Source: Ruminococcus sp. UBA4385 (lineage in GTDB: Bacteria > Bacillota_A > Clostridia > Oscillospirales > Ruminococcaceae). Taken from it: a stretch of 19,030 nucleotides of DNA. The stretch covers positions 1 through 19,030 of the forward strand of contig DGRP01000020.1 of NCBI GenBank assembly GCA_002391065.1, read 5' to 3'. Positions within the stretch are counted from its first letter, which is position 1; each line of letters begins with the position of its first letter. The notes beneath the pieces were generated by a model. It made no database searches and was not told the DNA's origin. It was given only the letters and a program-made list of their open reading frames with translations. Shown in pieces: positions 1,916-16,180 of this stretch. The translations under genes were made by a program, and so were the position numbers.

Positions 1916-4144
1916 TTAATCAAACTCTACATCTTCCTCAGCAACGTTATAAATATCAATCCTATTATCGATATCGATACGATTGACTATCCATCCATTA
2001 AGCTGACACATTTGAATAAAATCATTTATTCTGTTTTTTCCATGCATTTCCTTTAATGTTACTACTACACCAAATGGCATAGGAGTGTCATGCTTTGATT
2101 TCAGTCGTTCCTTAGTTTTTATACTAAGTCCCCACATACCTGCTTCATATTTTTTCTTTGGAATCGCTCTGCTTTTTATTTGATCGCTAATATGTTTGAT
2201 ATTGTCCCATTTGCGATAAAGAGTTCTTGCGACACCTTCATATAGACCAGCTCCGGACGAATCACCTTGCGTATTATTGTTTAACGACTTTATTGAAACC
2301 TTGCCTTTACTTAAATGAATTCTTCCAAAATGAATATCCATTTCTGTGTCAGTATAATCTACACCTTGATTTCTCGAACAAGTCGGGTAATAGCATAAAG
2401 TTGCTCGTGCATAGTATGGATGAGCATCGTTTTCATATGGCACTGGTAATCTATAGGTATAGGTTTCATATGATTCTGTTAATCCAGTCATTATAAATCG
2501 AATTTCATCGTCAGGTGTATTAACAATATCCTCAATTCTAACCGGAACAACTCCAAATCCTATAGAGTGTGTAGTATCATCTCGACGATTCCATCCAGCT
2601 GCGGAATCAACTATCAATGCCTTAGCAATTTCTCTGCTGAAACCCATTTTATAAATTAAAAAAGCAAGCTTGCGTGCTATCCATGGAGCTGCAAATGATG
2701 TGCCTATCTTTTTTCCTTCACCATTTGGTAAACAGACTGTGATACATTCTCCTTTATCACCGCCATAATAGCTTACATCTGGTTTGTTGAAAAAAGACAG
2801 AACAGGACCTACTCGATGATATGAAGCGGGGTTATTCTTAAAGTCAACCGCATTAACCACTAAAGAATTAAGTGAATCAGCAGGGGCACCAATTTTCATT
2901 GTTTCCTTTGTTCTGCTGCCTTTATTTGTTCCCGCTACAACAAAAACTACATCATATAAGCTTTGTAATTCATCAAGAATTGCAGCTTCAGGAGACATAT
3001 AATTAGGATTGATCTCCAATGCGGAACCAAGAGATAAATTCCAGACTTTTATATCAGGGTTTGCCTTAACTATCTCTCGAATGCTACGCATTATTGTAAA
3101 TGAACTGAATCTTCCATGAGTTGCAACACCAAAATGCTTAACTCTAAATCTTCCACAACCATCATCCAAGTTTTTATTAAATGAAGGCCCATCAACAATG
3201 ATTGAAGAAACCGCAGTTCCATGTTCATAATCAATACTATCAACTTCTATATCATCGGAAATCATTCTTTTGTATGTAACCCATTTGCCAAAATAAACAC
3301 TATCATCAAAGAGAGTATCAATAACGCCTACAAAAGGCTCGTTTGATGGATCTGGTATGGATAATGGTTCAAAATCATCATATCCTAATATATCTTCTTT
3401 TGCAATCTCTCTCATATCCACAACTTTCATAGATATTAGATAAGGCACGTTCATCTTGAGTTTTGCAAAATCCTCTGGTGATACTCTTAAAGTTTGATCA
3501 TCTATCATTTTAGTTTCGGCTATATCAATACCGATTCTGTCTAAAAGATCACGTGTAGAGATATTGGTCTTATACAGAGATATTATTACAGCCTCTTCTA
3601 CATCCTCAACTTTTGTATCAACTGCAAATTTACTAACATAATAAGCATCAACCAGTGTATTTACAAATACACTTCTTTTGATATCTTCACACTCATAAAC
3701 CTTTTCGTTATTGTTAATAGTATCAATTATATCGTGAGTAATACAACCATTATACTTATTTTTTATATACGAATTGACGATAGATAATTTGCGTATAGCT
3801 TCATATAATACTTCTTCGCTTATGAAGTGAATAAACACATGCTTTTGAGGAGTTCCTTCAAAACGGGAGCCTCTGATTGTATCGTTAGATGATATTTTCC
3901 CTTTTTTAAACAATGAATTGATCCTATTGCTTTTGGCTATTACATCGATATAATATACACTGAGCAGGATTCCGCCTATAGTTCTGTCTTTTTGCCAATA
4001 TGCAGCAATAGCTTTTAATTGCTCTATAAGTTCAGACAAATGCTTTGAATCAACCTTTCTTCCTTTTGGAATATTTCTGGCTCCAGGTTTATTGGGATTA
4101 GGTTTATGCTCGAATTTTCCTTTTAACTGCAATGTAGGATTCAT
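1916..4144 (-). CDS. ietS: Subtilisin-like serine protease, IetS type (S8 family)
   Basis: This 742-aa protein has no signal peptide, so it should act in the cytoplasm, unlike most subtilases. The S8 catalytic set is complete and correctly ordered: Asp276 in GVIDT, His308 in DYEHGTAV, the oxyanion Asn407 in VVAGTNKG and the nucleophile Ser483 in GTSFAAP. About 265 residues precede the catalytic domain and about 200 follow it. The gene starts 4 nt after the stop of an AAA+ ATPase gene, with an AAGGAG site inside that gene's end. A cytoplasmic S8 protease of this size directly behind a single AAA+ ATPase is the IetAS arrangement, first described as a toxin (IetS)/antitoxin (IetA) pair stabilising an agrobacterial Ti plasmid and later as an anti-phage system. 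The family call is strong from domain plus context; the target is unknown. Confidence 0.85.
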   Translation of the reverse strand: MNPTLQLKGKFEHKPNPNKPGARNIPKGRKVDSKHLSELIEQLKAIAAYWQKDRTIGGILLSVYYIDVIAKSNRINSLFKKGKISSNDTIRGSRFEGTPQKHVFIHFISEEVLYEAIRKLSIVNSYIKNKYNGCITHDIIDTINNNEKVYECEDIKRSVFVNTLVDAYYVSKFAVDTKVEDVEEAVIISLYKTNISTRDLLDRIGIDIAETKMIDDQTLRVSPEDFAKLKMNVPYLISMKVVDMREIAKEDILGYDDFEPLSIPDPSNEPFVGVIDTLFDDSVYFGKWVTYKRMISDDIEVDSIDYEHGTAVSSIIVDGPSFNKNLDDGCGRFRVKHFGVATHGRFSSFTIMRSIREIVKANPDIKVWNLSLGSALEINPNYMSPEAAILDELQSLYDVVFVVAGTNKGSRTKETMKIGAPADSLNSLVVNAVDFKNNPASYHRVGPVLSFFNKPDVSYYGGDKGECITVCLPNGEGKKIGTSFAAPWIARKLAFLIYKMGFSREIAKALIVDSAAGWNRRDDTTHSIGFGVVPVRIEDIVNTPDDEIRFIMTGLTESYETYTYRLPVPYENDAHPYYARATLCYYPTCSRNQGVDYTDTEMDIHFGRIHLSKGKVSIKSLNNNTQGDSSGAGLYEGVARTLYRKWDNIKHISDQIKSRAIPKKKYEAGMWGLSIKTKERLKSKHDTPMPFGVVVTLKEMHGKNRINDFIQMCQLNGWIVNRIDIDNRIDIYNVAEEDVEFD

Positions 4145-4148
4145 GTAC

Positions 4149-5183
4149 TCACTCCTTTAATTCCCTTGCAACTTGACTTTTAGAAATACCTGTGAGAATT
4201 TCTATTTCTCTAACAGTAAGCCCCTGACTATTTAAGGTTTTAACATCTAATTCTGAGTTATTAGTTATGTTTTGGTATATTCTTTTGAGATAATTATACT
4301 CTTCGCCTGGATTACTAAAGGCTATTGAGGTTTTAATGACATTCTTCAATTCTCCTGGCATCAACAATGGATTCATCAAAGAAATAATCTTTTTAAATAA
4401 ACGGATATTCCTTCCCGCAAATTTGAATTTATTAAGGTAATCATTTAGCAATATTTCCGCAATATCAACTAAATCTTCTTTTGTGTATCTATCAAAACTT
4501 ATTATAGAATCAAAACGTCTGGTCAACGCTCTGTCGAAATGCCCATAAAGGTTTGTGGTTGCAATTATTACTATACGTTCATCAAGATTATCTAAGCCTT
4601 TCAATATTGCTGAAGTAGCTCTTCCCATTTCTCTTAAATCATTAGAATTAGTCCGATCTAAGGCTATTGAATCAATCTCATCAAAAAGAATAATAACCGC
4701 ATCTGGATTAGAGAAGTTATTAATCTCACTAAACAGTTCAGAAATGTTCTTTTGCGTTTGGCCAAGTTTGCTATCGACAATTAACGAAAAATCAACTATA
4801 TATAATTCTCGTTCAAGTATTCTTGCAATCTGCTTTACTGTTTCTGTCTTTCCTGTTCCCGGCATCCCTTCAAACAGGAACTTATTAACGCCAACTCGAT
4901 GATTAATGGCGTTAATAATTCCAATTACATCTTGTTGAATCTGCTCTGGAAGAGGAAGCGGCTCATTATTTATAGCTACTTTCTCTAAAAATCCTGTTTC
5001 CACTTCGTTCATTTGTGGAACAAAAGTATTTGCATTTGATAGAAGTGCCATAATATATTCTGCTAATTGATAGTCTCCACTTGCATCAAAATCTTTAGCG
5101 ATTTCATACGCCTCATTTCTAAAACCAACATCATTTTTATCAGAATAATACTTTATGAGGTTCAATATATTCTTCTTCTTCAT
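4149..5183 (-). CDS. ietA: AAA+ ATPase, IetA type, with C-terminal helix-turn-helix-like segment
   Basis: I place the start at ATG 5181-5183 (344 aa) because a GGAGG site lies 8 nt upstream. The open frame runs back to 5264, but that stretch holds the promoter and lacks a ribosome site. The protein is a classic single AAA+ ATPase: Walker A GMPGTGKT (106-113), a SKLGQTQKNI segment typical of the second region, Walker B ILFDE (Asp168, Glu169), sensor-1-like ATTN and an arginine-finger region with ALTRRFD. The last 23 residues (LTVREIEILTGISKSQVARE) look like a DNA-binding helix-turn-helix. In IetAS pairs the ATPase partners the S8 protease and counters or controls it. The promoter carries paired repeats, so the protein may repress its own operon. 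Confidence 0.87.
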   Translation of the reverse strand: MKKKNILNLIKYYSDKNDVGFRNEAYEIAKDFDASGDYQLAEYIMALLSNANTFVPQMNEVETGFLEKVAINNEPLPLPEQIQQDVIGIINAINHRVGVNKFLFEGMPGTGKTETVKQIARILERELYIVDFSLIVDSKLGQTQKNISELFSEINNFSNPDAVIILFDEIDSIALDRTNSNDLREMGRATSAILKGLDNLDERIVIIATTNLYGHFDRALTRRFDSIISFDRYTKEDLVDIAEILLNDYLNKFKFAGRNIRLFKKIISLMNPLLMPGELKNVIKTSIAFSNPGEEYNYLKRIYQNITNNSELDVKTLNSQGLTVREIEILTGISKSQVARELKE

Positions 5184-5207
5184 AACAACAACCTCCAATT
5201 CAATTAT

Positions 5208-5236
5208 ATTATATATCACCTTGGGACAAATGTCAA
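5208..5236 (-). promoter_or_regulatory. Consensus promoter of the ietA operon
   Basis: Read on the minus strand: TTGACA (5231-5236), a 17-bp spacer and TATAAT (5208-5213). Transcription would start near 5201, about 18 nt upstream of the start codon at 5183, leaving room for the GGAGG site. Confidence 0.85.
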
Positions 5237-5251
5237 TAGTTTTGGGACAAA
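5221..5251 (-). promoter_or_regulatory. Two direct repeats (TTTGTCCCAA) flanking the -35 box: likely operator
   Basis: On the minus strand TTTGTCCCAA occurs at 5242-5251 and again at 5221-5230, exactly 21 bp apart (two helical turns), same orientation. The upstream copy sits just before the -35 hexamer and the other fills the spacer beside it, so a bound protein would block RNA polymerase. The candidate ligand is the ATPase of this operon, which ends in a helix-turn-helix-like segment; this is inference. Confidence 0.65.
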
Positions 5252-5292
5252 AATTATCAGGCATATGATTTTATCCTAATCAGTCAAACAAC

Positions 5293-5328
5293 AAAGAACC
5301 GCTTAGGAGTAATCCTAAGCGGTTCTTT
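5293..5328 (-). terminator. Intrinsic terminator of tRNA-Thr
   Basis: A 16-bp perfect stem (5293-5308 with 5313-5328) and a 4-nt loop begin 3 nt after the tRNA 3' end. On the minus strand it is followed by a T-rich tail (CTTTGTTGTTTG). Confidence 0.85.
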
Positions 5329-5330
5329 GG

Positions 5331-5403
5331 AGCTAGTGACCCGGCTCGAACGGGCGACCTGCGCATTACGAATGCGCTGCACTACCAACTGTGCTACACT
5401 AGC
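5331..5403 (-). tRNA. tRNA-Thr (anticodon CGT)
   Basis: The minus strand folds into a complete 73-nt cloverleaf: a perfect 7-bp acceptor stem (GCTAGTG/CACTAGC), a D arm with GTTGGTA, anticodon stem GCGCA/TGCGC around the loop TTCGTAA (anticodon CGT, reading ACG = Thr), and a T arm with loop TTCGAGC. The discriminator is T and CCA is not encoded. It marks the edge between the AT-rich accessory block (below 5290) and the more GC-rich host-like region. Confidence 0.95.
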
Positions 5404-5446
5404 ATATTAAATTTTTGAATTTGTAAGGTGCTGCACGGCTGTCGCT

Positions 5447-5476
5447 TTATAATCAGTCCGAGACCTCATATTACAA
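5447..5476 (-). promoter_or_regulatory. Possible promoter of tRNA-Thr
   Basis: On the minus strand TTGTAA (5471-5476), an 18-bp spacer and TTATAA (5447-5452) lie about 45 bp upstream of the mature tRNA 5' end. The boxes are imperfect, so this is a guess from position and shape. Confidence 0.35.
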
Positions 5477-5487
5477 TAAAGCAAAGA

Positions 5488-5509
5488 TCCCGATACAACT
5501 GTATCGGGA
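5488..5509 (-). terminator. Candidate terminator of the hydrolase operon
   Basis: TCCCGATAC pairs with GTATCGGGA around a 4-nt loop, 87 nt beyond the hydrolase stop codon. On the minus strand TCTTTGCTTT follows; the T-tract is broken, so it may be a moderate terminator. Confidence 0.5.
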
Positions 5510-5595
5510 ATCATTGTCCTATTCGGTTTGATTTAGTATTCTGCGTTAAAGACATCTTACATCAGAAAGGTTTTCCCCAACAAGTCACGCAGGCA

Positions 5596-6408
5596 CTATA
5601 GCAGTTTTTCTATCTCTGAGGCGAATTTGGCGGGGTTTTCTCTGATCAGCTTATGGGTACTGTTCTTAAATGACACTGAGGAAAACGGCGCTTGGGAGTT
5701 TTCCTTATACCAGTCGGCAAGCTTCGGCGTAAACAGAGTGCCGGGAATTGCATAAAAATAAGTAAGAGGAACAGTAATCTGTCCGACCACATTTCTGTAA
5801 TCCTCTTCCTTGAGGGAGCGTGCAAGGCTTTCAAGCACCTTTATACTGAACCTGTGAAGCTTTTTTCTCAGCATAATATAGAGTATAAACTTCGGGAGCT
5901 TTCTGTATTTCGGCACAGCCCCGAGGGTAAACATCATATATAGCTGCATAAAGGATTTGCCCTGATTATTCTTCATCGTGTCCTTGGTGTAGCGCCCCTT
6001 GTAAAGACCCATGCTCCAGCTTTCATCATTGAGCTGTTTTGGTGTCATATCACAGAGCACAACCTGTTTCAGCGCCTTGCAGCCGTAGTCACGGATATAG
6101 GTCATTACAGCGCCTGCGCCCATAGACCAGCCTACCAGAGTTATATCCGACAGTCCCAGCCCTGTAATAAGCTCATTAAGGTCGCTTGCGAGTGTCTCCA
6201 TAGTGACCTTTTCTCTGTGAGCCGACTTGCTTTTTGCGTGACCTCTGTGATCGTATGAAATACAGCGGGCTTTGTCTTTAAGCAGCTTTATCGGTTCGGC
6301 ATAAACATCGTGACTGCTTGCCCAGCCATGCAGAAAAACAACAGTCGGACCTTTGCCCGTATCCTCATAGTACAGCTTCATTCCGTTTTTTAGTGTGTAG
6401 TAGCTCAT
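5596..6408 (-). CDS. Alpha/beta hydrolase
   Basis: This 270-aa cytoplasmic protein has the alpha/beta-hydrolase hallmarks: the oxyanion-region HGW (27-29), a YDHRGHAKS segment (52-60) and the nucleophile elbow GWSMG with Ser95. The likely general base is His252 in NSTHKLIREN. The usual acid after strand 7 (in G..D) is not visible: the matching stretch reads YAIPGTLFTP. Asp120 after strand 6 (LCDMTP) is the best candidate and would give the alternative triad geometry known in some members. The substrate cannot be told; esterase, lactonase and haloperoxidase-like enzymes share this shape. It starts 17 nt after the flavoprotein gene, with an AAGGCAG site, and both are probably transcribed from the promoter near 7130. 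Confidence 0.88.
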   Translation of the reverse strand: MSYYTLKNGMKLYYEDTGKGPTVVFLHGWASSHDVYAEPIKLLKDKARCISYDHRGHAKSKSAHREKVTMETLASDLNELITGLGLSDITLVGWSMGAGAVMTYIRDYGCKALKQVVLCDMTPKQLNDESWSMGLYKGRYTKDTMKNNQGKSFMQLYMMFTLGAVPKYRKLPKFILYIMLRKKLHRFSIKVLESLARSLKEEDYRNVVGQITVPLTYFYAIPGTLFTPKLADWYKENSQAPFSSVSFKNSTHKLIRENPAKFASEIEKLL

Positions 6409-6425
6409 TTAAGTCTGCCTTAAGC

Positions 6426-7043
6426 TTATCTGATAAAGTGAGTAGCCACCCAAGGCTCTTTTTCAGGAAGGCCGTACTTCTCTTTTCCGAGGGCTATCGA
6501 CTTCATAAGAAAGCTCATGTTTCTTGCAAGTGCCCTGACAGTCTGCAAGCCTTCAAGGTCCTGCTTAGCCTCTCCTGCCTGTCTGCCGTGAACGCTGTTC
6601 CAGTACTGGCTTGAAGCCACAGGCATACCTGTGATAGTAAAATACTTGTTTAGCTCATCAAATGTGGCTGAACAGCCGCCTCTTCTTGCAACAACAACGC
6701 TTGCACCCACCTTCATAGTCTTATCAAAGCTTGTGCTGTAGAAGAGCCTGTCAAGACAGGCAACAAGAGTTGCATTTGCAGAAGCATAGTAAACAGGGCT
6801 TGCGACTACAAGACCGTCAGCTTCCTCAAACTTCGGGGCGAGCTCATTCACAGTGTCATTAAACACACAGTGACCAAGCTCCGAGCACCTGTTGCAGGCA
6901 ATACAGCCCCTTATGTCCTTGCTTCCGATCTGACAGACCTCAGTCTCAACGCCTTCGGCTTCAAAGACCTTTACCATTTCATCAAGCGCAACAGATGTGT
7001 TTCCGCCCACTCTGGGGCTTCCGTTTAATATAAGAACTTTCAT
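6426..7043 (-). CDS. Flavodoxin-fold NAD(P)H:FMN reductase, iron-sulfur-flavoprotein-like
   Basis: This 205-aa protein opens with MKVLILNGSPRVGGNTS (FMN phosphate-binding loop), followed by GCIACNRCSELGHCVFNDT. The Cys47, 50, 53 and 59 spacing (CX2CX2CX5C) is that of iron-sulfur flavoproteins, where it binds a 4Fe-4S cluster next to FMN; related flavodoxin-family reductases keep the motif without proof of a cluster. VASPVYYASANATLVACLDR is the usual second flavin-contact segment. It should catalyse electron transfer to quinones, oxygen species or small aromatics in the cytoplasm. A GGAGG site precedes the start. It is first in a two-gene operon with the alpha/beta hydrolase. Its leader contains a dispersed repeat hairpin. 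Confidence 0.88.
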   Translation of the reverse strand: MKVLILNGSPRVGGNTSVALDEMVKVFEAEGVETEVCQIGSKDIRGCIACNRCSELGHCVFNDTVNELAPKFEEADGLVVASPVYYASANATLVACLDRLFYSTSFDKTMKVGASVVVARRGGCSATFDELNKYFTITGMPVASSQYWNSVHGRQAGEAKQDLEGLQTVRALARNMSFLMKSIALGKEKYGLPEKEPWVATHFIR

Positions 7044-7061
7044 AAAAGATACCTCCGATAC

Positions 7062-7122
7062 AATTGCCCGATATGCATATCTGTAAGGGCATTAATAATG
7101 AACGCTATGCTTCATTATACCA
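7062..7122. repeat. Dispersed palindromic repeat, copy 1, in the leader of the flavoprotein gene
   Basis: This 61-bp unit shares AATTGCCCGATATGCA, TATCTG-AAGGGC and TTCATTATACCA, in the same order, with the copy at 15794-15886. As minus-strand RNA it can form GCCC/GGGC plus GATA/TATC around a TTACA bulge. Its right end supplies the -10 of the flavoprotein promoter. Confidence 0.75.
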
Positions 7123-7143
7123 CATTTCTGAATGATCTGTCAA
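7114..7143 (-). promoter_or_regulatory. Promoter of the flavoprotein/hydrolase operon
   Basis: On the minus strand TTGACA (7138-7143), an 18-bp spacer and an extended -10 TGGTATAAT (hexamer 7114-7119). The leader to the start codon at 7043 would be about 64 nt and would include the palindromic repeat. Confidence 0.8.
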
Positions 7144-7169
7144 TCATATAAGCTGAAACAGGATCACAA

Positions 7170-7197
7170 AAACGACTGCGGTTTTCCGCAGTCGTTT
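7170..7197 (-). terminator. Intrinsic terminator of the clpP/virD4-like/clpX-like operon
   Basis: A 12-bp stem AAACGACTGCGG/CCGCAGTCGTTT with a TTTT loop lies 3 nt past the stop codon of the ClpX-like gene. On the minus strand a TTTTTG tail follows. Confidence 0.9.
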
Positions 7198-7200
7198 AGT

Positions 7201-8925
7201 TTATGCGCTCATACCCTCCAGAGGGTCTGCAATCTCTTTAGGTTTGAACCTTGTGCGTCCCTTTGCGTCGATAATGAGCATCTCATTGTCCCTGTCAAAG
7301 CTGCCGCTGCGAAGCTTTTCAGCAAGAGATGTTATTATCAGCTCGTTGATGCGGTTCATAGGTGCCCTCACTCCGAGAGGTGTATATGCTTTGTCAACAA
7401 GCTCCTTGAGAGCCTTTGGCGTAAGTCTGACCGTAATTCCTTTCTCCTTTCCTAACTGCTCTGCTTTGTCTTTGATAAGACAGCGCATATCCTTTTCCTT
7501 GATCTTGTGGAAGTTTACCGCAAGGGTTATCCTTCCTGCGATCTCCTGAAGCATTCCCTGCTCCATCATGTCATTCATGGTGAGTTTTTCAAAGAAGAGC
7601 TCATCGGGCTCATCAAGCTCATCATCGTCATCTCCGAAGATAGCACGCATTGCTGCTCCGTTTTCACGCTTGTCGTTTCTTAAGTCCTGGAATGCACCCA
7701 TGTACACAAACATCGTTTTTGCAGAATCTACAATTCCCGACAGATCCTCCTGATCTATCTTTACATACTGAGCTGAGCCCTCAACTATGGTAAGGAGATT
7801 TGCCTGTACTGCCGCGTTGAAGTTGCGTTTGTTGCTGTCTATGCTGGGCATGAACTTCTTGTCTGCTTCATCGAGGAATACTATTGCAGTTCCGATATCG
7901 GAAAAGCCCTTGCGATTCATATCAAGGCTGTCGGAAGCTATGAGAATATCCTTGAGGATTTCTTCTGCCTCCGCACCCTTGTAGCCTGCTTCGGTTATGC
8001 GGCTGAGGTCTCTCTGGATAACGGGTATGGGAACATCATGCATAGCGAAGAAGTCTCTTACAGCCCTGAAGAACTCTGTCTTGCCCATTCCGCTGGGCGC
8101 AGTGAGGATCCAGCTAGGAGGTGTGAACTTCTTTTTATATGCAGTGTTTTCGACGTACTCATAAACGAGGTAAACTGCCTTTATGAGCTCATCGTCCTGT
8201 CCTACTATACGGCTGCGGCAGTACTCATAAAGCTCATTCATGGAAAAGTCAATATGGAAAATGCAGTCTTTTTCCTGCTTTCCCTTTTTTCTGCCCGAGC
8301 AGAACACCACCTTGTGTCCCGACTCTGCAAGCAGAGTTCTTGCAAGTCCCATAGTATCTGTAGGGCAGCTCTCAAAGTATACAGGTATGTCCTTATTGTA
8401 AGAATCAAGCCTTCCGATGGCATTCTGAAGAACAGAATATGTCTGTGCGGGTGAATCGGTCTTGAAGAAGATATATGTTCTGTTCGACATACGTGACTTC
8501 CTCTCCATGACCTTTACATTAGAACCCTGAACAAGCTTTGCCTGCCTGAAAAGGTCATCGTCAGTGTTCAGGAGCTCCTCAAGAGGGCGTTCACGGGGAG
8601 TTTTATCGTAGAGCTCAACAAATATGATACCGTTACGCTTAATAGTCATTCTGTTCAGAGTTCCGTCAACATTGATGATGTTTTCAGCGTGCTCTGATGC
8701 CTGTATTTTACTATATATATTAGCGTAGTTGTTCTCATCAAGGACAAGGGCGGCAGTGCCGTCGTCCTTGTTGATGTAGGTGTATGCAAATTTCGGCTTG
8801 TTTTCCTTTGCACAGTCCTCGCAGTAATAGCCTGCGATCTCATTTCCGACTATTACTATGCTGCTGTTAAGGTTACAGCTGCAGCAAGCGCACTTATTTT
8901 CTGATAAATTGATTGAATACAACAT
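7201..8925 (-). CDS. ClpX-like AAA+ unfoldase with N-terminal zinc finger and extra domain
   Basis: I choose ATG 8923-8925 (574 aa), which has AGGAAG 7 nt upstream; a GTG at 8941-8943 overlapping the previous stop codon is the alternative. Cys14/Cys17 and Cys35/Cys38 form a ClpX-type zinc-binding domain. About 190 residues of unknown fold follow. The AAA+ module has Walker A APSGMGKT (Lys282), pore-loop segment EAGYKGAEAE (ClpX has EAGYVGEDVE), Walker B IVFLDEADK (Asp352, Glu353), arginine-finger-like IAGRI and sensor-2-like GVRAP. It is longer than ClpX (about 420 aa) because of the insert. Where ClpX has the IGF loop that docks ClpP, this protein reads AIFG followed by a strongly acidic run. 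It most likely unfolds proteins for the ClpP-like peptidase of the same operon; docking chemistry must differ. Housekeeping clpX is an unlikely identity. Confidence 0.85.
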   Translation of the reverse strand: MLYSINLSENKCACCSCNLNSSIVIVGNEIAGYYCEDCAKENKPKFAYTYINKDDGTAALVLDENNYANIYSKIQASEHAENIINVDGTLNRMTIKRNGIIFVELYDKTPRERPLEELLNTDDDLFRQAKLVQGSNVKVMERKSRMSNRTYIFFKTDSPAQTYSVLQNAIGRLDSYNKDIPVYFESCPTDTMGLARTLLAESGHKVVFCSGRKKGKQEKDCIFHIDFSMNELYEYCRSRIVGQDDELIKAVYLVYEYVENTAYKKKFTPPSWILTAPSGMGKTEFFRAVRDFFAMHDVPIPVIQRDLSRITEAGYKGAEAEEILKDILIASDSLDMNRKGFSDIGTAIVFLDEADKKFMPSIDSNKRNFNAAVQANLLTIVEGSAQYVKIDQEDLSGIVDSAKTMFVYMGAFQDLRNDKRENGAAMRAIFGDDDDELDEPDELFFEKLTMNDMMEQGMLQEIAGRITLAVNFHKIKEKDMRCLIKDKAEQLGKEKGITVRLTPKALKELVDKAYTPLGVRAPMNRINELIITSLAEKLRSGSFDRDNEMLIIDAKGRTRFKPKEIADPLEGMSA

Positions 8926-8939
8926 AATTATACTTCCTT

Positions 8940-10253
8940 TCACTTTTCAATGTTATGATTTACCGGTTTTCTTGTCTTGCATTCAGGGGAATGTGCTCCC
9001 AGATCGTAGCTGTCAAGGAGCAGTGTATCTGCAAACCTTGCTATGCCCCCCTGACGGACATAGAGGTGTCTGAGCATAGGCATTGAGAGTATCTTCTCAA
9101 CAGGCTTGTTAGCCAGCAGAGAGAAGTATCTCGCTGTGTTATAGTCACAGCCGCCCATGTAGATTTTTGTCGCACAGTTTGCAAGTATCGTATTTGAGCC
9201 TGCGCCGTAGCCCTGTTCAAGCTGAGAAAGCGTCTGCAATGCAAACTGTACGGAAATACCTCTTGAACGTATATTTGAGATCATGTTCTCAAAGCCCTGT
9301 ATTTTTACATTTGTGCCGAAGTCATCAAGAATGAAGCGCACAGGCACAGGCAGATGCTTGTCCTCAAGGCTGTCAGCATAACGGCAGAGGGTGTCCATAA
9401 GCTGGGTGTAGAAGATGTTTACAGCAGGGTCTTTTGAACGGTCTGTATCGGAGACCTTGATGAAAAGCGCAGTCTTCCTGTCAGCAATTGACTTGAGGTC
9501 GATATCGCTGTAGCTGCTCATTTCACGCATTTCGTCAGTGTCGAAGCACTGCAGTGCAAGAGCTGCTCTTACAATGGCTGTGCTGAGCAGATACCCCGGG
9601 ATCTTAATAAGCTTATTGAACTGCTCGCAAGCCCAGCTTGATTTCCCTGTTCTCTTTTCGTATAGCTCCTTGTGCCTGTTGAATATCCTCTCTGCGTTGC
9701 CGGTTTCGCCCTTTTCAAACGCTTCGGGCTTGAACATACCTATAAGCTTAGTAAGCCCCTCAATGTTCGCAGTGAATCCCTTTCCGCCCTCTTTGAGATA
9801 CCCGATACAGCACTCCAGCAGGAGCTGTTCGGCTTCAAGCTGGATATTGTCATTGACATTGTCACGGTTTATACCGTTGTATACAACGATATGCGCTGCT
9901 TTCTGATAATCATTCGGTGTTTTTGCCGAATCAATTAAGTTATAGTGTATACCTCTGAAACCCACTGTATCGTATAGCATAACATCATAGTTTTCTTCTT
10001 CAAGCGTGGCAGCGCATAACTCATAAAGTGTGCCCTTAGGGTCAGAGATGACCATACTGCCTCCGCCGCCGCCCGAGAACACAGTCTGGGCGAGGTTGCC
10101 GAAGGTCTTTCCTGTGCCTGAGCCGCCTATTAGAACGGTGTTGCTGTTTTGTCTGCCCTCCCTGCCGAAGTTCTCCGTGAGAGTGCCGTCAGGGTTGATG
10201 AATGCGCCTGTCTGTCTTGCAGTAAGTATGCTTTTGCTAAGTTCGTTATTCAT
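8940..10253 (-). CDS. VirD4/TraG-like ATPase without membrane segments
   Basis: The start is taken at ATG 10251-10253 (437 aa), with GAGGAGG 6 nt upstream, giving an 8-nt overlap with the ClpP-like gene; the longer frame from 10283 lacks such a site. Features of type IV coupling proteins: Walker A GGSGTGKT (43-50), VISDPKG (68-74), Walker B RFILDDFG (Asp310, Asp311) and the segment SNIRSRGISVQFALQTLSQL followed by ANCATKIYMGG and TARYFS. Canonical members have Asp-Glu in Walker B; here it is Asp-Asp. The N-terminal transmembrane helices of VirD4 are missing, and no relaxase, VirB4 or channel genes are nearby, so a conjugation role is unlikely. The soluble ring ATPase may move DNA or protein to the neighbouring ClpX/ClpP-like pair. 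The family is clear; the function is unknown. Confidence 0.85.
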   Translation of the reverse strand: MNNELSKSILTARQTGAFINPDGTLTENFGREGRQNSNTVLIGGSGTGKTFGNLAQTVFSGGGGGSMVISDPKGTLYELCAATLEEENYDVMLYDTVGFRGIHYNLIDSAKTPNDYQKAAHIVVYNGINRDNVNDNIQLEAEQLLLECCIGYLKEGGKGFTANIEGLTKLIGMFKPEAFEKGETGNAERIFNRHKELYEKRTGKSSWACEQFNKLIKIPGYLLSTAIVRAALALQCFDTDEMREMSSYSDIDLKSIADRKTALFIKVSDTDRSKDPAVNIFYTQLMDTLCRYADSLEDKHLPVPVRFILDDFGTNVKIQGFENMISNIRSRGISVQFALQTLSQLEQGYGAGSNTILANCATKIYMGGCDYNTARYFSLLANKPVEKILSMPMLRHLYVRQGGIARFADTLLLDSYDLGAHSPECKTRKPVNHNIEK

Positions 10254-10911
10254 ATTGATCCTCCTCATTTGTGATGTCCTCAAAGCCTGTTGCTATCGCA
10301 TCGCAGAGACCGAATTCGATAGCCTCCTCAGCATTGAAGAAATTGTCGTAAGCTGTTTTCTCGTTGATCTCCTCGACAGATCTGCCTGTGAACTCAGCCA
10401 GCAGACCGTTGAGTGTTTTTTTAGTTTCGATGATAGATTCCGCAGTTCTCTGGATAGATGTTGCCGAACCTCCCACTCCGCCTGCGATAAGGGGCTCGTG
10501 AATCATCACCTTTGAGTGTTCAAGTATGAACCTGTGACCCTTTTCTCCTCCTGCGAGAAGCACTGCCGCCATTGAAGCCGCAAGACCCACACAGTAAATA
10601 TCAATACCGTAACGGTAATGCTTCATAGCATCAAGTATTGCCAGACCTGCATTGACCTCGCCTCCGGGGCTGTCGATAAAAAATCTGAGCTTTTTCTTTT
10701 CCCTTGCGGCAATCCTCATAAGTATTATAACGAGACTTGCCACATCGCTGTCAATGGGAGTTGTTATCCAGACATCTCCGTTTTCAAAGCTGATCGCTGA
10801 TATGTGAACAGGTGACGAGCCGCTTGCACTGTCGTGCATCACATAGGTCGGAAGAAGGGGGTGTCTTACAGAGCTTCCGTCTCCGCAGAAAATTTTGTTG
10901 TTATTTGTCAT
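10246..10911 (-). CDS. ClpP-like serine peptidase
   Basis: This 221-aa protein has a complete ClpP-type triad: Ser113 in GLAASMAAV, His138 in MIHEPL (25 residues apart, as in ClpP) and Asp189 in TAYDNFF. IDSPGGEVNAGLAI (79-92) is the usual oxyanion/handle region. Compared with ClpP there are about 40 extra N-terminal residues and a two-residue insertion after the catalytic His (IAGGVGG). It should form a cytoplasmic barrel peptidase. AGGAGGT lies 7 nt before the start. It is the first gene of a three-gene operon with 8-nt overlap to the VirD4-like gene. It is too divergent, and in the wrong company, to be the housekeeping clpP; related ClpP-like proteins also occur as phage head-maturation proteases, but no phage genes are present. 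Confidence 0.9.
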   Translation of the reverse strand: MTNNNKIFCGDGSSVRHPLLPTYVMHDSASGSSPVHISAISFENGDVWITTPIDSDVASLVIILMRIAAREKKKLRFFIDSPGGEVNAGLAILDAMKHYRYGIDIYCVGLAASMAAVLLAGGEKGHRFILEHSKVMIHEPLIAGGVGGSATSIQRTAESIIETKKTLNGLLAEFTGRSVEEINEKTAYDNFFNAEEAIEFGLCDAIATGFEDITNEEDQYE

Positions 10912-10987
10912 AGTGATTACCTCCTGTGGTATCGTGTTGTTTTTCTTCTGTGACTATAGTCTAGCATAAAATTTCAGCCCTGCCTAA

Positions 10988-11003
10988 CCCCAAGTATGGG
11001 GAA
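10988..11003. promoter_or_regulatory. Inverted repeat CCCC-N6-GGGG upstream of the ClpP-like operon
   Basis: CCCCAAGTATGGGG lies about 80 bp upstream of the ClpP-like start codon. On the minus strand possible -10 hexamers (TATGCT, TATAGT) follow 30-40 bp later but without a good -35, which fits activator-dependent transcription. This is speculative. Confidence 0.3.
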
Positions 11004-11016
11004 ATGACAAAAAAGT

Positions 11017-11050
11017 CCCCCAAAACCACGAAAATACGCGGTTTTGGGGG
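11017..11050 (-). terminator. Intrinsic terminator of the 436-aa gene
   Basis: CCCCCAAAACC pairs with GGTTTTGGGGG (11017-11027 with 11040-11050), 5 nt after the stop codon. On the minus strand the stem is followed by ACTTTTTTG. It separates this gene from the ClpP-like operon. Confidence 0.88.
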
Positions 11051-11055
11051 TATCA

Positions 11056-12366
11056 TCAGTAAAAATTATAATTCTCACGGAAGCCTTTAAAATCATGCTC
11101 CATATCATCTATCATATCTTTAATATCACTCAGCCTGACCGTATTGAGCAGAGTGGGGTGGTATATATTTCTGAGTGATTTTATACATTCCTCGATATTG
11201 ACTTCTCTTGTACCGAAGGGGTATATCTTTCCGATATCCATAGAAGATATAAAAATCTTTCTGTCTCTCTCATCAAGGTTCATAGCTACCGCTAAGCTGA
11301 TAAGCATATCACGGGAGCAGGACCTCGGCTTTTTGCCTCTGAGATCAATGGGGAGCTTATTTCTTCTGTATGCAGCCAGCTCTTCCAGTATGCCGAGATA
11401 GTTTTTTTTGCCGTATCTCTTCTCATATTCTTCGGGCTGTTCTGTGTGCAGCCTTTCCATTTCTTCTGTCCATTTATTATAATAATAATCAATTATAGTC
11501 AGTCCGAAATCCTCCGCACTTTTATCGGGGTTTTCTTCGATATACTTAGTATACCTCTGCATAAGCTCTTCCTGAATGCTTTTAGCTTCTCTCTGTTTGT
11601 TTATAAAGTCGGGGAAACGCTTGGTGATCCTTGCAAAGTTTGTTATTTCGTACAGGAAATGAACCTTTCCGGCTTCCCATGTTCTGAGGAGCTTTTCAAT
11701 ATCTCCTTCAAACTTTATCAGCCATTCAAGATCGGTTCTCAGCTTATCCACAAGATTCGTATATAATTTGCCCGCTTTTTGAAACACATAGAGATCATGG
11801 TTTATAAACGGTGTATCCGATGTGATTTCTTTAAGATCAAGATAGATGTAGATGTTCCTTATACAGCTTTTACGCTTGCTGCGCTCTGTCAGGTCAAGGA
11901 GGAGCTCCTTCATCACAAAAAACTTCACCGCCAAAGGAAGCTTGGTGGTTTCATCGGGAAAAAGGAGAATGTCTATGCTTTCGTGACCCTCTGCCTCGGC
12001 AAAGTCAATGAGCTTTTTGCAGCAGTCCTGCAGGAGCAGTATCTCCTGATCGTAGCCGATGCCGACCATTTTCGGCATTATCATAAAGGCATAGCTTCTG
12101 TTTTTTCCAAGGTCGTCCTCCCTGTCAAAGGTGTAGATGTCACCGTAGTTTGCCTTTTTATATGCATCGCTTTGCATAACGGAGTTGTATTCTTTTTCGT
12201 CATTACCGCATATAGAGATAAAGCTGTTTCTCAGATAGTCTGAGACAGGCTCGTCATAGCTGCCTGTAAACAATGCTGTCAAGGAGCCCATACTCTTTCG
12301 CAGAGGTTCCTTGGCCTCTGTATGTACTTCCAGTATAGAATGAATTATCTCTGATTCTTTTTTCAT
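11056..12366 (-). CDS. Unknown 436-aa protein; possible degenerate macro domain and XRE-associated-like C-terminus
   Basis: I do not recognise this as a named family. Roughly residues 70-175 run GDIYTFD, then SYAFMIMPKM, then LLLQDCCKKLIDFAEAEGHE, SIDILLFPDE and a strand near IRNIYIYLD. This order (GDA..T, a strand, a helix ending A...G..SI..P, then a final strand) resembles the second half of a macro (ADP-ribose-binding) domain, although the Gly-rich ligand loop is not seen. A charged middle region with likely coiled-coil helices follows. Near the C-terminus SRDMLISLAVAMNLDERDRK and IYPFGTRE resemble the RD.LI.L..AL.L...E...L....G..PLYP..R helical unit often fused to XRE-type regulators in Firmicutes. 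No signal peptide or membrane segment. AGGTGAG precedes the start. It has its own promoter and terminator. Confidence 0.8.
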   Translation of the reverse strand: MKKESEIIHSILEVHTEAKEPLRKSMGSLTALFTGSYDEPVSDYLRNSFISICGNDEKEYNSVMQSDAYKKANYGDIYTFDREDDLGKNRSYAFMIMPKMVGIGYDQEILLLQDCCKKLIDFAEAEGHESIDILLFPDETTKLPLAVKFFVMKELLLDLTERSKRKSCIRNIYIYLDLKEITSDTPFINHDLYVFQKAGKLYTNLVDKLRTDLEWLIKFEGDIEKLLRTWEAGKVHFLYEITNFARITKRFPDFINKQREAKSIQEELMQRYTKYIEENPDKSAEDFGLTIIDYYYNKWTEEMERLHTEQPEEYEKRYGKKNYLGILEELAAYRRNKLPIDLRGKKPRSCSRDMLISLAVAMNLDERDRKIFISSMDIGKIYPFGTREVNIEECIKSLRNIYHPTLLNTVRLSDIKDMIDDMEHDFKGFRENYNFY

Positions 12367-12389
12367 TTGCTCACCTGCTTTCTGCTTTT

Positions 12390-12418
12390 ATTATATAGTA
12401 TCGGAGAGGCTTTTTCAA
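12390..12418 (-). promoter_or_regulatory. Promoter of the 436-aa gene
   Basis: On the minus strand TTGAAA (12413-12418), a 17-bp spacer and TATAAT (12390-12395), with about 20 nt from the predicted start site to the ATG. Confidence 0.85.
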
Positions 12419-12449
12419 GTAATTTTTTCTGCACACACGGGTTTATCTA

Positions 12450-12478
12450 TTGCAATTTGGAGCATTCTGTGTTATAAT
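12450..12478 (+). promoter_or_regulatory. Promoter of the secreted lipase-like gene
   Basis: TTGCAA (12450-12455), a 17-bp spacer and TATAAT (12473-12478) precede an AAGGAGG site and ATG 12510. It is divergent from the promoter at 12390-12418, with only 31 bp between the two -35 boxes. Confidence 0.85.
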
Positions 12479-12509
12479 AATTGTTAATAAACCACAAAGG
12501 AGGTAATTT

Positions 12510-14762
12510 ATGAAACAAATTAAACTTTTAACAAAAGCTGCGGCATTAGTGCTCAGTGCAGGAGTGCTGATATCAGCCCTGCCGATGAGTGCCATAGCTG
12601 ATGAGATCGAGCCCGTCAAGGCTGTAACAGGTACCTTCACCTATGTAACAGCGGGCAGCGAGAACGCCCTCGGAGAGAAGTATGAGAAGACCGAAAAATT
12701 CTATTACAGTGATGACTTTTTCTCTGAGCCGTCATCTGTTATGAATGAGCATCTGAGGACTATGTCTGCCGCCCTTGCCTTAACGGCATTCGGTTCTCTC
12801 GGTGAGGACAATTCTGCAAATATATCAGATCTGTTTATGAAAATGCAGTATGACCCGAAGGTTGATGCTCAGGACGTTGAAGGCGAACCCACAAAGGACA
12901 CTATAGGCTCATATATTTCCTACACTGCTACTGTTGATGATGAGAATATCGTCGCAGTTGCGCTGAGAGGAAGCCGCTATGGTGCAGAATGGGCAAACAC
13001 CCTTCTCTCGGGCGCCGAGGGGGATATACAGGGTCTTTCCGAGGCAGCTCTGAAGGTAGCTGACCGTATAAAGGCTTTCTGTGAGAGCCATGAGATCACA
13101 GCCGACAAGATATGGATAACAGGCTACAGCCGTTCGGGTGCAGTTGCTGACCTTACAGGCAAGTACATAAACGAGCACCTTGATGAGTTCGGCATAACGG
13201 CCGACGACCTTTATGTGTACACCTTTGAGGCACCCCGTGCAAGTGCTGAGAATACACAGTATGCAAATATTCACGATGTTATAAATCCGAATGATATTAT
13301 ACCTATGGTATATCCCGAGCAGTGGGGCATTTACCATGCAGGCGTTGAGGAGTACCTCAGCTGTGAGGATAAAACAGTACAGCCCATGCAGATAGATGCC
13401 GCAAGTCTTTCAAGCGGAAAGATCGGCTTCCTTCCGATAGAGACACGCACAGAGCCTGAATCTATGAAGGACTTTGAGAAGAGCTTCATTGATTTTCTTA
13501 CTCAGAGCATAGACAGAGCAGGCTACAGCAAGAACAGCGAGGCAATCGGAAATATAGTTGCAATGTTTGTCGGAATGAGCAAGGAGCAGATGTCTGCACT
13601 GGGTGCGTTTGCAAAGAGTGCGTTCAGCAATATCGGGCTTATGGACCTTGCAATGAATGTTCTGCCTGTTATTGCGGGCGACCCGACCTCGGCTGATTAT
13701 CCTGCAGCTGTTGATAATCTTGCACAGTTCGTGATAAGCAAGTTTGATGCCGCAGACCACAGTGCCTGCCTGACCGATGAGCAGTACGCAGGATTAAAGG
13801 CAGCTCTGCCTGATCTTCTGCAGCTTGCGGCTCCCGTTATTTCAAGAGATGCCACAGCAAAGCATGGCGGTGAAGTGCTTGAAATGATATCCACCTTTGC
13901 AGGAAACGCCCGGAACATTATCAGGGAGCATATTCCTGAAAACGTTCTTGAAATGGTAAAGGCCGAGGACTCATACTACACCGACAATGTACAGGTAGAG
14001 AGAGGTAATGCGTTCTATTTCGGAACAGTCAGCGCAGAGGATAAGGCTGACGATGACAAGCTCAGAGAAATAGGCTTTGATGACACCGATATAGAGTTCC
14101 TTAAAAACGGCTATGATGTTTACTATTCGGTATTCGGCCGTACTATCTCAAAAGACGACCCCGATGATGACGCTTATTCCGAACAGGTACAGGCAGCGCT
14201 TGATGAGTACTGCAACGGTAAGAACATCGACATAAACCATGAGTTTTCCGTACTGGGAGAGTCATGGGCAGTAAGAAACAGGGGCTATGAGCCTATTGAG
14301 GCTGTTGACATCGAGAACATTGTGGTCGAATATATGGCAGGCGCTTATGATGTTGACGCATCGCTGTATAAAGACCTTCTCGAGAAAGGCACCTTCCATT
14401 ACCTGTATTTTGATCCCGAAACGAACGCCTTCAAGGAAAGCACGATCACAGATATGAGGATAGAATTCCCCGACAGTGATACTGTAGAGCTGTATTTCAA
14501 TGCGCAGTTCTATAAAGCAGGAGTTTACGCTCTGCTTTATGAGCCTGATGAGGTCGTAGTACCTGCTGACGAGAGCAGCGAGCCTGTCAAGGAGGAGAGC
14601 TCCAAGGCAGATGAAAGCTCCAAAGCGGCTGAAAGCAGCACTGCTGCAAAGGCAGTAAGCGAGCAGAGTGCAGCAAACCCCGGAACAGGTGCTCCTGTAG
14701 TAATGAGCGTTGTTGTTCTTGCCGCTGCGGCTGCAGTCATCACAAAGAAAAAGAGTAAGTAA
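12510..14762 (+). CDS. Secreted class-3-lipase-like protein with sortase-type C-terminal anchor
   Basis: This 750-aa protein has a Sec signal peptide (KQIK, then a hydrophobic stretch, cleavage probably after SAIA at residue 30). The body resembles class 3 lipases: VALRGSRYGAEW, nucleophile elbow GYSRSG with Ser207 (usual form GHSLGG), FEAPRAS, Asp262 in NPNDIIPMVYP and His276 in YHAGV, together a plausible triad. About 400 further residues are not recognised. A Ser/Ala/Glu/Lys-rich stalk (about 690-722) leads to NPGTG (723-727), a hydrophobic helix and a KKKSK tail, the layout of a cell-wall sorting signal with a variant of LPXTG. It therefore probably hydrolyses esters at the cell surface. 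An AAGGAGG site supports the start. Confidence 0.85.
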   Translation: MKQIKLLTKAAALVLSAGVLISALPMSAIADEIEPVKAVTGTFTYVTAGSENALGEKYEKTEKFYYSDDFFSEPSSVMNEHLRTMSAALALTAFGSLGEDNSANISDLFMKMQYDPKVDAQDVEGEPTKDTIGSYISYTATVDDENIVAVALRGSRYGAEWANTLLSGAEGDIQGLSEAALKVADRIKAFCESHEITADKIWITGYSRSGAVADLTGKYINEHLDEFGITADDLYVYTFEAPRASAENTQYANIHDVINPNDIIPMVYPEQWGIYHAGVEEYLSCEDKTVQPMQIDAASLSSGKIGFLPIETRTEPESMKDFEKSFIDFLTQSIDRAGYSKNSEAIGNIVAMFVGMSKEQMSALGAFAKSAFSNIGLMDLAMNVLPVIAGDPTSADYPAAVDNLAQFVISKFDAADHSACLTDEQYAGLKAALPDLLQLAAPVISRDATAKHGGEVLEMISTFAGNARNIIREHIPENVLEMVKAEDSYYTDNVQVERGNAFYFGTVSAEDKADDDKLREIGFDDTDIEFLKNGYDVYYSVFGRTISKDDPDDDAYSEQVQAALDEYCNGKNIDINHEFSVLGESWAVRNRGYEPIEAVDIENIVVEYMAGAYDVDASLYKDLLEKGTFHYLYFDPETNAFKESTITDMRIEFPDSDTVELYFNAQFYKAGVYALLYEPDEVVVPADESSEPVKEESSKADESSKAAESSTAAKAVSEQSAANPGTGAPVVMSVVVLAAAAAVITKKKSK

Positions 14763-14772
14763 TTCAGCTTAG

Positions 14773-15729
14773 CTATTTTACATCAAAGCAGCCGAGAAAG
14801 CGCATTTTAAGCTCGGTGCTTTCGGTTAGCTTGATATATTTTTCGTAAGAGCACTCAGCACATTCTATCACATACTGATATTCACCGAGCTCGGTTTTAT
14901 TCGGGCGGTCGTGTATCGTTACAAGAGTTATGCCCTGTGCATCAATTGCGCTCATAAGCTCGGGAAGATCGTCTGCGCTGCCATCTGCAATAAACGCTGT
15001 GCGCTCAGCCTTTGCAGTGGCAGGCTCCTGCATAGACAGCACATAGAAACGTGTTTTGTTGCTGTCATTATTCTGAATAGCAGCGGCGAGGACTTCAAGT
15101 CCGTAAACATCAGCGCAGGCAGCAGATGCTATCGCCGCACATGAATGGTCTCCGTTTTCGGAGACCATTTTTGCTCCCTCGGCAGTACTGGAGACCTCTA
15201 TCACTTCGGCATTCGGGAGATTAGCTTCGAGCCACTCCTTTCCCTGTGCGATACCCTGTTTGTGGGAATAAACTGTCTTAATGTCGGAAACCTCGGTTTC
15301 GGGAAGAACGAGAAGATTCTGGTTTATCGGCAGCTCTACCTCGCCCACTACGGAAACCGTTGTATCAGCTATAAGAATATCGACATAGTCCGTGACCGCA
15401 CCGCCGATAGTGTTTTCCTGAGGGATAACCGCAAAGCCGCTGTCTCCGCTTATCAGCGCATCGACCGCATCTCCGACTGTTTCATAAGGCACATAGCTGC
15501 CCTTGCCGTCAAAGAAAACGCCGCAGGCTTCCTGAGTGTAGGTACCCTCAGGGCCAAGGTAGCTGACCTTAGCAGTATCGGCATTTATTTCGGCAGAGAC
15601 TTCAGGGAGCTCCTCTGCCGCCGATGAGCTGACAGCCTTGCTTTCCGAAGAGCTGTCTGCTGTATTGTCGCCGCAGCCTGTCAGAATAAAAGCCGCAGCA
15701 ATAGCAGTAATGAGAATTTGTTTTTTCAT
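14773..15729 (-). CDS. Lipoprotein with prephenate dehydratase and ACT domains
   Basis: This 318-aa protein starts with a lipoprotein signal peptide (KKQ, hydrophobic core, LTGC with Cys19) and a Ser/Glu-rich linker to about residue 53. The rest is prephenate dehydratase of the PheA type: YLGPEGTYTQEA (57-68), IPQENTIGG, SHKQGIAQGKEWL and the catalytic NKTRF (Thr226). An ACT domain follows, in which the usual GAL and ESRP motifs that bind phenylalanine read DDL and HDRP. The family normally converts prephenate to phenylpyruvate in the cytoplasm; export as a lipoprotein is very unusual and the altered ACT motifs suggest loss of Phe feedback. A role as an external binding protein is also possible. 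It ends 10 bp from the lipase-like gene (convergent). Promoters come from a repeat array upstream. Confidence 0.88.
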   Translation of the reverse strand: MKKQILITAIAAAFILTGCGDNTADSSSESKAVSSSAAEELPEVSAEINADTAKVSYLGPEGTYTQEACGVFFDGKGSYVPYETVGDAVDALISGDSGFAVIPQENTIGGAVTDYVDILIADTTVSVVGEVELPINQNLLVLPETEVSDIKTVYSHKQGIAQGKEWLEANLPNAEVIEVSSTAEGAKMVSENGDHSCAAIASAACADVYGLEVLAAAIQNNDSNKTRFYVLSMQEPATAKAERTAFIADGSADDLPELMSAIDAQGITLVTIHDRPNKTELGEYQYVIECAECSYEKYIKLTESTELKMRFLGCFDVK

Positions 15730-15761
15730 AATGAATCACCGTCCAAAAGCTTTGCAGCAGT

Positions 15762-15770
15762 ATTATACCA
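15762..15770 (-). promoter_or_regulatory. Extended -10 (TGGTATAAT) closest to the prephenate dehydratase lipoprotein gene
   Basis: The minus strand reads TGGTATAAT (TG-N-TATAAT), giving a leader of about 26 nt to ATG 15729. No good -35 is seen, as is tolerable for an extended -10. Another copy lies at 15878-15886. Confidence 0.5.
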
Positions 15771-15793
15771 TATAAGCGTAAGCGTTATGGTAT

Positions 15794-15886
15794 AATTGCC
15801 CGATATGCAGGGAGCAGAACTTTGTTCTGCGTATCTGCAAGGGCGTTTAGATAAATTATAATGAATGTTTTGCATTCATTATACCA
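15794..15886. repeat. Dispersed palindromic repeat, copy 2, with internal hairpin
   Basis: Same element as 7062-7122, with 22 extra bases inserted between ATATGCA and TATCTG; the extra bases form their own hairpin (GCAGAAC/GTTCTGC). The outer pairing GCCC/GGGC and GATA/TATC is kept. With the flanking bases, the ends are TGGTATAAT (15788-15796) and ATTATACCA (15878-15886), a 9-bp inverted repeat. Confidence 0.78.
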
Positions 15887-15897
15887 TATAAGCGTTC

Positions 15898-15931
15898 TGG
15901 TATAATTGTCCGCTATGCGTTCATTATACCA
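15898..15931. repeat. Shortened copy of the palindromic repeat
   Basis: TGGTATAAT and ATTATACCA enclose only TGTCCGCTATGCGTTC, as if the centre of the unit were deleted. It follows copy 2 after a short ATATAAGCG spacer also present at 15770-15778. Confidence 0.65.
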
Positions 15932-15950: not shown

Positions 15951-15954
15951 CCGA

Positions 15955-16140: not shown

Positions 16141-16180
16141 AAGTCTAGTGCAAGACAGACTCGGCTGGAGTGAGGGGAGA

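Follow-up and report, generated by a model that had tools for sequence, protein, structure and literature searches.

A clpP-family gene conserved beside the gene of a membrane-free VirD4-type ATPase in Ruminococcus sp. UBA4385 and other genomes

The clpP–VirD4 operon

The stretch of DNA analyzed here, referred to as the window, comprises positions 1 to 19,030 (19,030 nucleotides) of contig DGRP01000020.1 of Ruminococcus sp. UBA4385 (GenBank assembly GCA_002391065.1). Transcription on its minus strand passes through an open reading frame (ORF) for a 436-amino acid (aa) protein, followed by an operon that encodes a ClpP-family peptidase, a VirD4-like ATPase and a ClpX-like AAA+ protein designated AAAX. 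The conserved unit is formed by the first two genes of the operon, clpP and VirD4, and not by all three. The clpP-family gene (10246–10911, minus strand, 221 aa; PF00574, E 2.1e-48) and the gene of a membrane-free VirD4/TrwB-type ATPase (8940–10253, minus strand, ~437 aa, with an Asp-Asp Walker B motif) are core genes 1 and 2 of this module, and AAAX (7201–8925, minus strand, ~574 aa; PF07724, E 3.2e-8) is an optional accessory gene. The ORFs of the ATPase and of AAAX are open from 10283 and 8943, respectively, and the starts used here are internal ATGs chosen so that product length agrees with that of the closest homologues in the database (P0127, 437 aa, and P0001, 574 aa). With these homologue-fitted starts, the VirD4 start at 10253 overlaps clpP by 8 nucleotides and the AAAX start at 8925 lies 14 nucleotides past the VirD4 end.

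A hairpin at 7170–7197 (minus strand, 12 of 12 pairs, ending in TTTTT) directly follows the last stop codon and is the probable operon terminator; it is absent from the terminator-scan output. On the upstream side, the 436-aa ORF (11056–12366, minus strand) encodes a candidate sensor or regulator, which may include a degenerate Macro domain and has a helix-turn-helix (HTH)-like C-terminal region. An intrinsic-terminator-like hairpin with a 14-base pair stem and a T-rich tail (11017–11050, minus strand) separates this gene from clpP, thus the 436-aa gene probably has its own transcript. The original prediction, made from the letters of the window, described three families in one operon with an 8-nucleotide overlap, a 14-nucleotide gap, a terminator at the end and an intact ClpP triad. 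All ORFs, domains and spacings were confirmed, the terminator corresponds to the 12-base pair hairpin, and Ser, His and Asp of the triad are all present.

Distribution and co-divergence of the pair

In a first pass, 13 AAAX-bearing genomes were searched with a VirD4 profile and nine regions were read. Eight VirD4s of 411–515 aa had ClpP upstream and no AAAX, with one intervening gene in L128 and L129, and the 644-aa VirD4 of locus L132 had no ClpP. The profile A5 was derived from 13 VirD4s, each already known to have ClpP upstream, with L132 left out. Such a profile is circular with respect to linkage; three later checks therefore addressed lineage members outside the family, the nearest database proteins and short-framed VirD4s.

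The family survey of 396 genomes yielded 52 VirD4 matches in 38 genomes; 51 of these, in 37 genomes, have frames of 389–542 aa, and the remaining frame is 617 aa long. A same-strand ClpP lies upstream of 48 of the 51 lineage VirD4s, four of these (L210, L220, L226 and L229) having been located by a six-frame search. No same-strand gene intervenes in 46 of the 48 loci; L195 and L226 contain one gene between the two. The original prediction would have been undermined by an arrangement confined to a single strain, and the pair was found in 37 of the 396 family genomes and beyond. Order- and phylum-wide searches revealed lineage members outside the family in G225, G345, G349, G1191 and G1471, and all five have ClpP directly upstream and the Asp-Asp Walker B motif; G225 and G345 are nearly identical, so that four of these five cases are independent.

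Within a class-wide set of 30 loci, the sole lineage member (L134) has ClpP, and the 29 non-lineage VirD4s have none within their 1.5-kb flanks. Altogether, 68 non-lineage VirD4 loci were read and 67 of them have no ClpP, namely these 29, L243, 18 from the order- and phylum-wide searches and 19 of 20 short-framed VirD4s. The latter (315–542 aa, ordinary scores) are all of the Glu type at Walker B in the 19 readable cases, L327 being unreadable. The combination of short frames, Glu and no ClpP indicates that the Asp-Asp lineage, and not short length alone, is the mark. On IMG/VR contigs, Asp-Asp VirD4s with ClpP occur at two distinct places (L281 = L112, and L289) and those without ClpP at two; the other places have no ClpP.

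The identity matrices of ClpP and VirD4 correlate with a Mantel r of 0.89 (0 of 2000 permutations, n = 56), and adjacency is kept although pairwise identity in this set falls to 24% and 21%. The co-divergence signifies co-inheritance rather than binding, because a common ancestry of entire loci would produce it just as direct contact would. In most genera the module is an accessory with a patchy distribution, whereas in one genus four genomes (L214, L216, L218 and L219) have the pair next to a shared set of downstream genes.

The VirD4-type motor

The window VirD4 matches PF02534 with an E value of 6.5e-32 and scores 245.3 bits against the NCBIfam model CD1115, narrowly under the cut-off of 250. 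It exhibits the full TrwB-type motor fold together with an all-alpha domain. The predicted loss of the membrane anchor holds: there is no transmembrane-like segment, the highest 19-residue Kyte–Doolittle mean being 1.42. Such a segment is found in none of the 51 lineage loci and in 20 of 30 other VirD4s. The Walker A motif is located near residue 42 in the lineage and near residue 145 in ordinary VirD4s (medians). At Walker B, Asp replaces Glu in 56 of 56 lineage members (DD), whereas all 47 ordinary VirD4s carry Glu (DE). The 120 nearest database proteins, picked regardless of linkage, are all of the DD type; 115 are no longer than 480 aa and none has a transmembrane-like segment.

The module motor shares its fold with the type IV coupling proteins (TrwB of R388, CD1115, Cag-beta 8dol and DotL), but it is anchor-free, its Walker A occurs earlier, its Walker B is DD instead of DE, and ClpP is encoded alongside. 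The HerA-effector defence systems (HerA-DUF4297 and SIR2-HerA/Nezha) likewise combine a soluble ring of the FtsK/HerA superfamily, of related fold, with a second gene. Nonetheless, the module motor belongs to the coupling-protein lineage and its partner is a peptidase rather than a nuclease or NADase; PADLOC gave no match to an effector of either kind among the four operon proteins.

VirD4 matches in plasmids comprised 1468 records, all below 60% identity, 1098 of which are predicted to be conjugative, and some lineage genes in gut genomes are currently annotated as conjugal transfer proteins. The motor had been proposed not to be an ordinary conjugation remnant, and it does belong to a distinct membrane-free lineage that nearly always stands next to ClpP in the sampled chromosomes.

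The ClpP of the module

The window ClpP scores 145.2 bits against TIGR00493, for which the equivalog cut-off is 308.6, placing it below the threshold for housekeeping ClpP. It belongs to the same family as the ClpP-related phage head-maturation proteases but scores better against the cellular ClpP models (best E 3.9e-49) than against the PHROG head-maturation families (2.3e-32). A phage packaging cluster is not favored on these scores; visual inspection of the examined loci showed no capsid, portal or terminase genes, although no systematic search was aimed at them. The three genes did not each map to the normal conjugative or phage contexts that the original prediction had set against a separate system.

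The set of module ClpPs comprises 56 sequences (48 from sampled loci, the window and seven from further loci). The catalytic Ser and His are present in all 56 and the catalytic Asp in 48. Immediately preceding the catalytic Asp is an Arg described as one of two oligomerization-sensor residues of ClpP (PMC9035409). This Arg is found in none of the 56 module ClpPs and in 20 of 20 housekeeping ClpPs from 20 same or related genomes, and the acidic sensor residue preceding it is found in one of 56 and 20 of 20, respectively. Both residues are absent from the window ClpP. In the phylogenetic tree, module and housekeeping ClpPs are separated with a support of 1.0. Loss of the sensor Arg combined with a separate branch is what a ClpP that works with a different partner would be expected to show. 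One position is aromatic in 40 of the 56 module ClpPs (Tyr in 32, Phe in eight), and from its numbering we take this position to lie in the hydrophobic docking site of ClpP. The two genes of the pair are thus conserved, adjacent and co-diverging, and their products are distinct in sequence from ordinary VirD4 and housekeeping ClpP.

Outside the DD lineage, L339:639-2752 encodes a Glu-type VirD4 of 512 aa and a canonical-looking ClpP whose gene overlaps the 3' (downstream) end of the VirD4 gene and which keeps the sensor Arg. Here a coupling-protein motor appears to have been paired with ClpP a second time and independently, a hint that such pairings arose more than once.

The ClpX-like protein

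The window AAAX contains a CxxC...CxxC motif at its N-terminus and scores 59.2 bits against TIGR00382, the ClpX equivalog, for which the cut-off is 370.75. The AAAX family profile matches ClpX structures, with a best E value of 5.3e-34. A genome scan with the 28-member AAAX profile gave 36 loci. The order ClpP, VirD4, AAAX recurs in L002, L003 and L004, where the identity to the window proteins is 40–55% for VirD4 and 55–59% for ClpP; L003 contains an additional HD-domain gene, and L002 and L004 an ORF of 111–116 aa. In L027, AAAX is placed before ClpP and VirD4. The remaining AAAX loci lack the pair in the stretch read, L035 (Parcubacteria) having a ClpP some 8 kb away.

Viewed from the sampled modules, AAAX lies near three of 51 (L193, L196 and L197, judged by length to be the contigs of L004, L027 and L002), to which the window and L003 are added, and the other 48 showed no AAAX- or ClpX-type gene in their vicinity. 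The trio was therefore rejected as a unit, and the original proposal of a three-protein system does not extend beyond an uncommon arrangement. True AAAX occurs in three of 125 genomes of the genus sample and one of 394 of the order sample. Many AAAX-profile matches at ~90–132 bits are taken to be housekeeping ClpX, and 56 of these were checked for the IGF motif. On plasmids and phages AAAX gave distant matches only, none covering 80% of the query.

ClpXP and ClpAP have in common with the module the ClpP family and its catalytic residues, and the window also encodes a ClpX-like AAA+ protein. The module ClpP nonetheless occupies a separate branch without sensor residues, and its usual neighbor is a VirD4-type motor rather than an AAA+ ring. 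The profile alignment pairs the [IL]GF of AAAX with the IGF of a ClpX from the PDB, L035 and L036 being too distant to include. All 56 ClpX-range sequences read [ILMV]G[FY] at this loop, whereas the window AAAX reads AIF. The docking IGF is absent from all five module-linked AAAX proteins (the window, L002, L003, L004 and L027), L003 and L004 reading SGF. Among the unlinked AAAX proteins of 30 loci, 25 keep [ILV]GF, two do not (L001 and L028) and three are unreadable; the genome of L001 (G518) holds an unlinked module and that of L028 gave no VirD4 match. Four of the five linked proteins belong to one clade, thus their lack of IGF represents few independent events. ClpX-like protein and ClpP had been regarded in the original prediction as an obvious pair, a view weakened by the finding that the ClpX-like proteins linked to the module are those without the docking motif.

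In six loci without the pair (L010, L011, L012, L016, L029 and L033), AAAX follows a 360–416-aa protein of one family. The three that were scanned (L010, L011 and L016) are HTH proteins. These loci constitute a second association of the ClpX-like family.

A candidate protease with a coupling-protein motor

The window is best explained as one copy of an accessory two-gene module, with AAAX added downstream and a Macro-like or HTH-like gene upstream, in which the pair would operate as one ATP-driven proteolytic machine. We give this explanation an even chance. ClpP and the VirD4-type motor probably form a physical complex. That a coupling ATPase off the membrane acts as an unfoldase, threading proteins directly into a rebuilt ClpP, is a tentative proposal on which we would not rely. 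According to this scheme, the motor ring freed from the membrane would select the substrate and deliver it to the ClpP chamber, a task that falls to AAA+ rings in the case of ordinary ClpP. The product of the upstream gene would sense a signal and either control expression or supply the substrate, and the ClpX-like ring of the window could be a second loader or a remodeler with a changed docking loop.

To our knowledge, all ClpP partners are AAA+ rings that dock via IGF-type loops. If the scheme is correct, the module would provide the first ATP-dependent protease known to us with a motor of the FtsK/HerA/VirD4 superfamily in place of an AAA+ ring; a ring that in conjugation pushes protein–DNA substrates into a secretion channel would feed ClpP, and the ring–ring interface of ClpP would have been rebuilt. 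This would be a new class of energy-dependent protease and would suggest that coupling proteins are able, by themselves, to translocate polypeptides. No description of a ClpP–VirD4 pair was found in the open-access PMC literature, subscription papers and preprints being outside the search. We consider a ClpP tied to a coupling-protein motor to be categorically new in composition, a claim that does not extend to mechanism. A short VirD4 with the DD Walker B motif and ClpP upstream provides a gene signature applicable to gut genomes.

Several observations weigh against a single proteolytic machine. Members of the TrwB family are known above all as DNA motors, and the Glu-to-Asp change in Walker B could slow ATP hydrolysis. 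Absence of a transmembrane segment is not unique to the lineage, since several short Glu-type VirD4s also lack one. The catalytic Asp is replaced by Asn in seven and by Glu in one of the 56 module ClpPs. Three chromosomal loci (L221, L227 and L235) have no ClpP and carry in its place a helical protein of the type designated N3, and IMG/VR contigs include DD VirD4s without ClpP (L111 = L275, 431 aa, L111:8347-9639; L113 = L114, 615 aa, L113:2567-4414). The existence of DD-type motors without ClpP implies that the motor can act without ClpP, which is a usual but not an obligatory companion. The host's own ClpX could serve the module ClpP; the fetched flanks often end with the contigs, and AAA+ genes may sit elsewhere (genome of L001 and L125).

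A different and rather unlikely explanation is a DNA-sensing conflict system, where the VirD4 ring engages incoming plasmid, phage or broken DNA in a HerA-like manner and thereby licenses ClpP proteolysis of, for example, the upstream regulator or the partner of a toxin. A defence role is possible. The patchy distribution fits defence and equally other accessory roles, and the sole PADLOC match among the operon proteins is that of VirD4 to MAD8, at 41 bits. Superfamily fold matches, however, do not tell DNA motors from protein motors. No nuclease or toxic effector recurs among 95 neighbors, where the best 25 of 34 PADLOC families were seen once each, and in one genus the pair has a constant set of downstream genes in four genomes, which does not resemble the rapid turnover of a defence gene.

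It is improbable that the two genes are co-regulated but have separate tasks, with either host ClpX or AAAX feeding ClpP while the VirD4-like ATPase pursues a task of its own. The aromatic residue kept in 40 of 56 module ClpPs at the presumed docking site would suit such an arrangement, as would the AAAX of some loci and the DD-type VirD4s that lack ClpP. However, co-divergence and adjacency down to 21–24% identity would be hard to keep without a joint function, and the linked AAAX proteins have no IGF motif.

A role as a mobilisation accessory, whose motor would move element DNA via the secretion channel of a helper while ClpP degrades a protein of transfer or replication, is highly improbable. 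The motor is akin to the coupling proteins of the CD1115 family, a few IMG/VR contigs carry DD-type VirD4s, a Mob_Pre relaxase (L128:7331-8518) is encoded directly downstream of the module VirD4 in L128, and a DUF3991 protein adjoins the pair in L238. But relatives of the Mob_Pre relaxase, the only type sought, were found in two of 59 loci, one of them weak, and neither relaxase nor VirB4 was found among eight window proteins in the Pfam scan, the other window ORFs being judged by eye. Moreover, the motor has no membrane anchor and its copies occupy one chromosomal place in one genus. Finally, every protein comes from a known superfamily, as in a decayed conjugative element or chance neighbors, but this explanation has a negligible chance, being refuted as far as sequence allows by the retained Walker motifs and catalytic residues, the linkage in 48 of 51 loci and the Walker B change in 56 of 56.

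The upstream slot and neighboring genes

The gene upstream of the pair varies. Macro-domain proteins occupy this slot in L002, L127, L128 and L199, with HTH_3 just under the cut-off in L127 and L128. In L003 and L004 an MmeI_N domain is joined to the same C-terminal region as in the window 436-aa protein; these MmeI_N domains look degenerate by eye at what we take to be the catalytic residues. The slot holds proteins of 500–630 aa with sub-cut-off HTH matches in L195 and L209, and helical N3 proteins in one large subclade. The window 436-aa protein has no Pfam family and aligns with the Macro group, and a C-terminal profile built from this protein and those of L003, L004 and L128 also finds L127. 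Its structure model has a predicted local distance difference test score of 58 and its best Foldseek matches are macro domains (E 0.13), which is only suggestive of a Macro domain. The Macro-type genes mostly lie ~150–310 nucleotides from clpP, the distance being 59 nucleotides in L199, whose clpP frame is long. This spacing suits a regulator on its own transcript. The N3 genes abut clpP. One small-protein family recurs in pair loci (L130:8218-8649, L236:938-1609, L238:1428-1907 and L242:9831-10250), and together with N3 it may represent a third component.

The neighbor scan covered 95 of the 221 listed neighbor genes and partly left out genes already typed, so that Macro and N3 are understated. 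Among the best 25 of 65 Pfam families none has more than four members (HTH_3 four, Macro two), and the best 25 of 34 PADLOC families have one member each, with no recurrent defence family. The PADLOC tally includes a CARF-HEPN (Csx1-like) match, which by eye looks like the module neighbor L237:5741-7492.

Surroundings of the operon in the window

The IetAS genes, a known anti-phage pair, are located at 1916–5264 (PADLOC IetS 3.8e-64, IetA 5.5e-38) beside a tRNA-Thr at 5328–5403. Genome G001 contains positions 1920–5466 at 99% identity, with a tandem repeat of part of the tRNA region, which suggests recent transfer at a tRNA site. The operon itself has no DNA match in G001. The proximity of IetAS was thus rejected as a sign of a defence role for the module, since the IetAS stretch is found in a genome where the operon has no match. 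Downstream of IetS on the same strand (367–1873) are encoded a 154-aa protein of no known family and a Ser/Thr kinase with relatives among the MAD6 and PD-T4-6 kinases. A short intergenic element at 15760–15912 has several copies of 82–89% identity in G001 (C2, C4 and C6).

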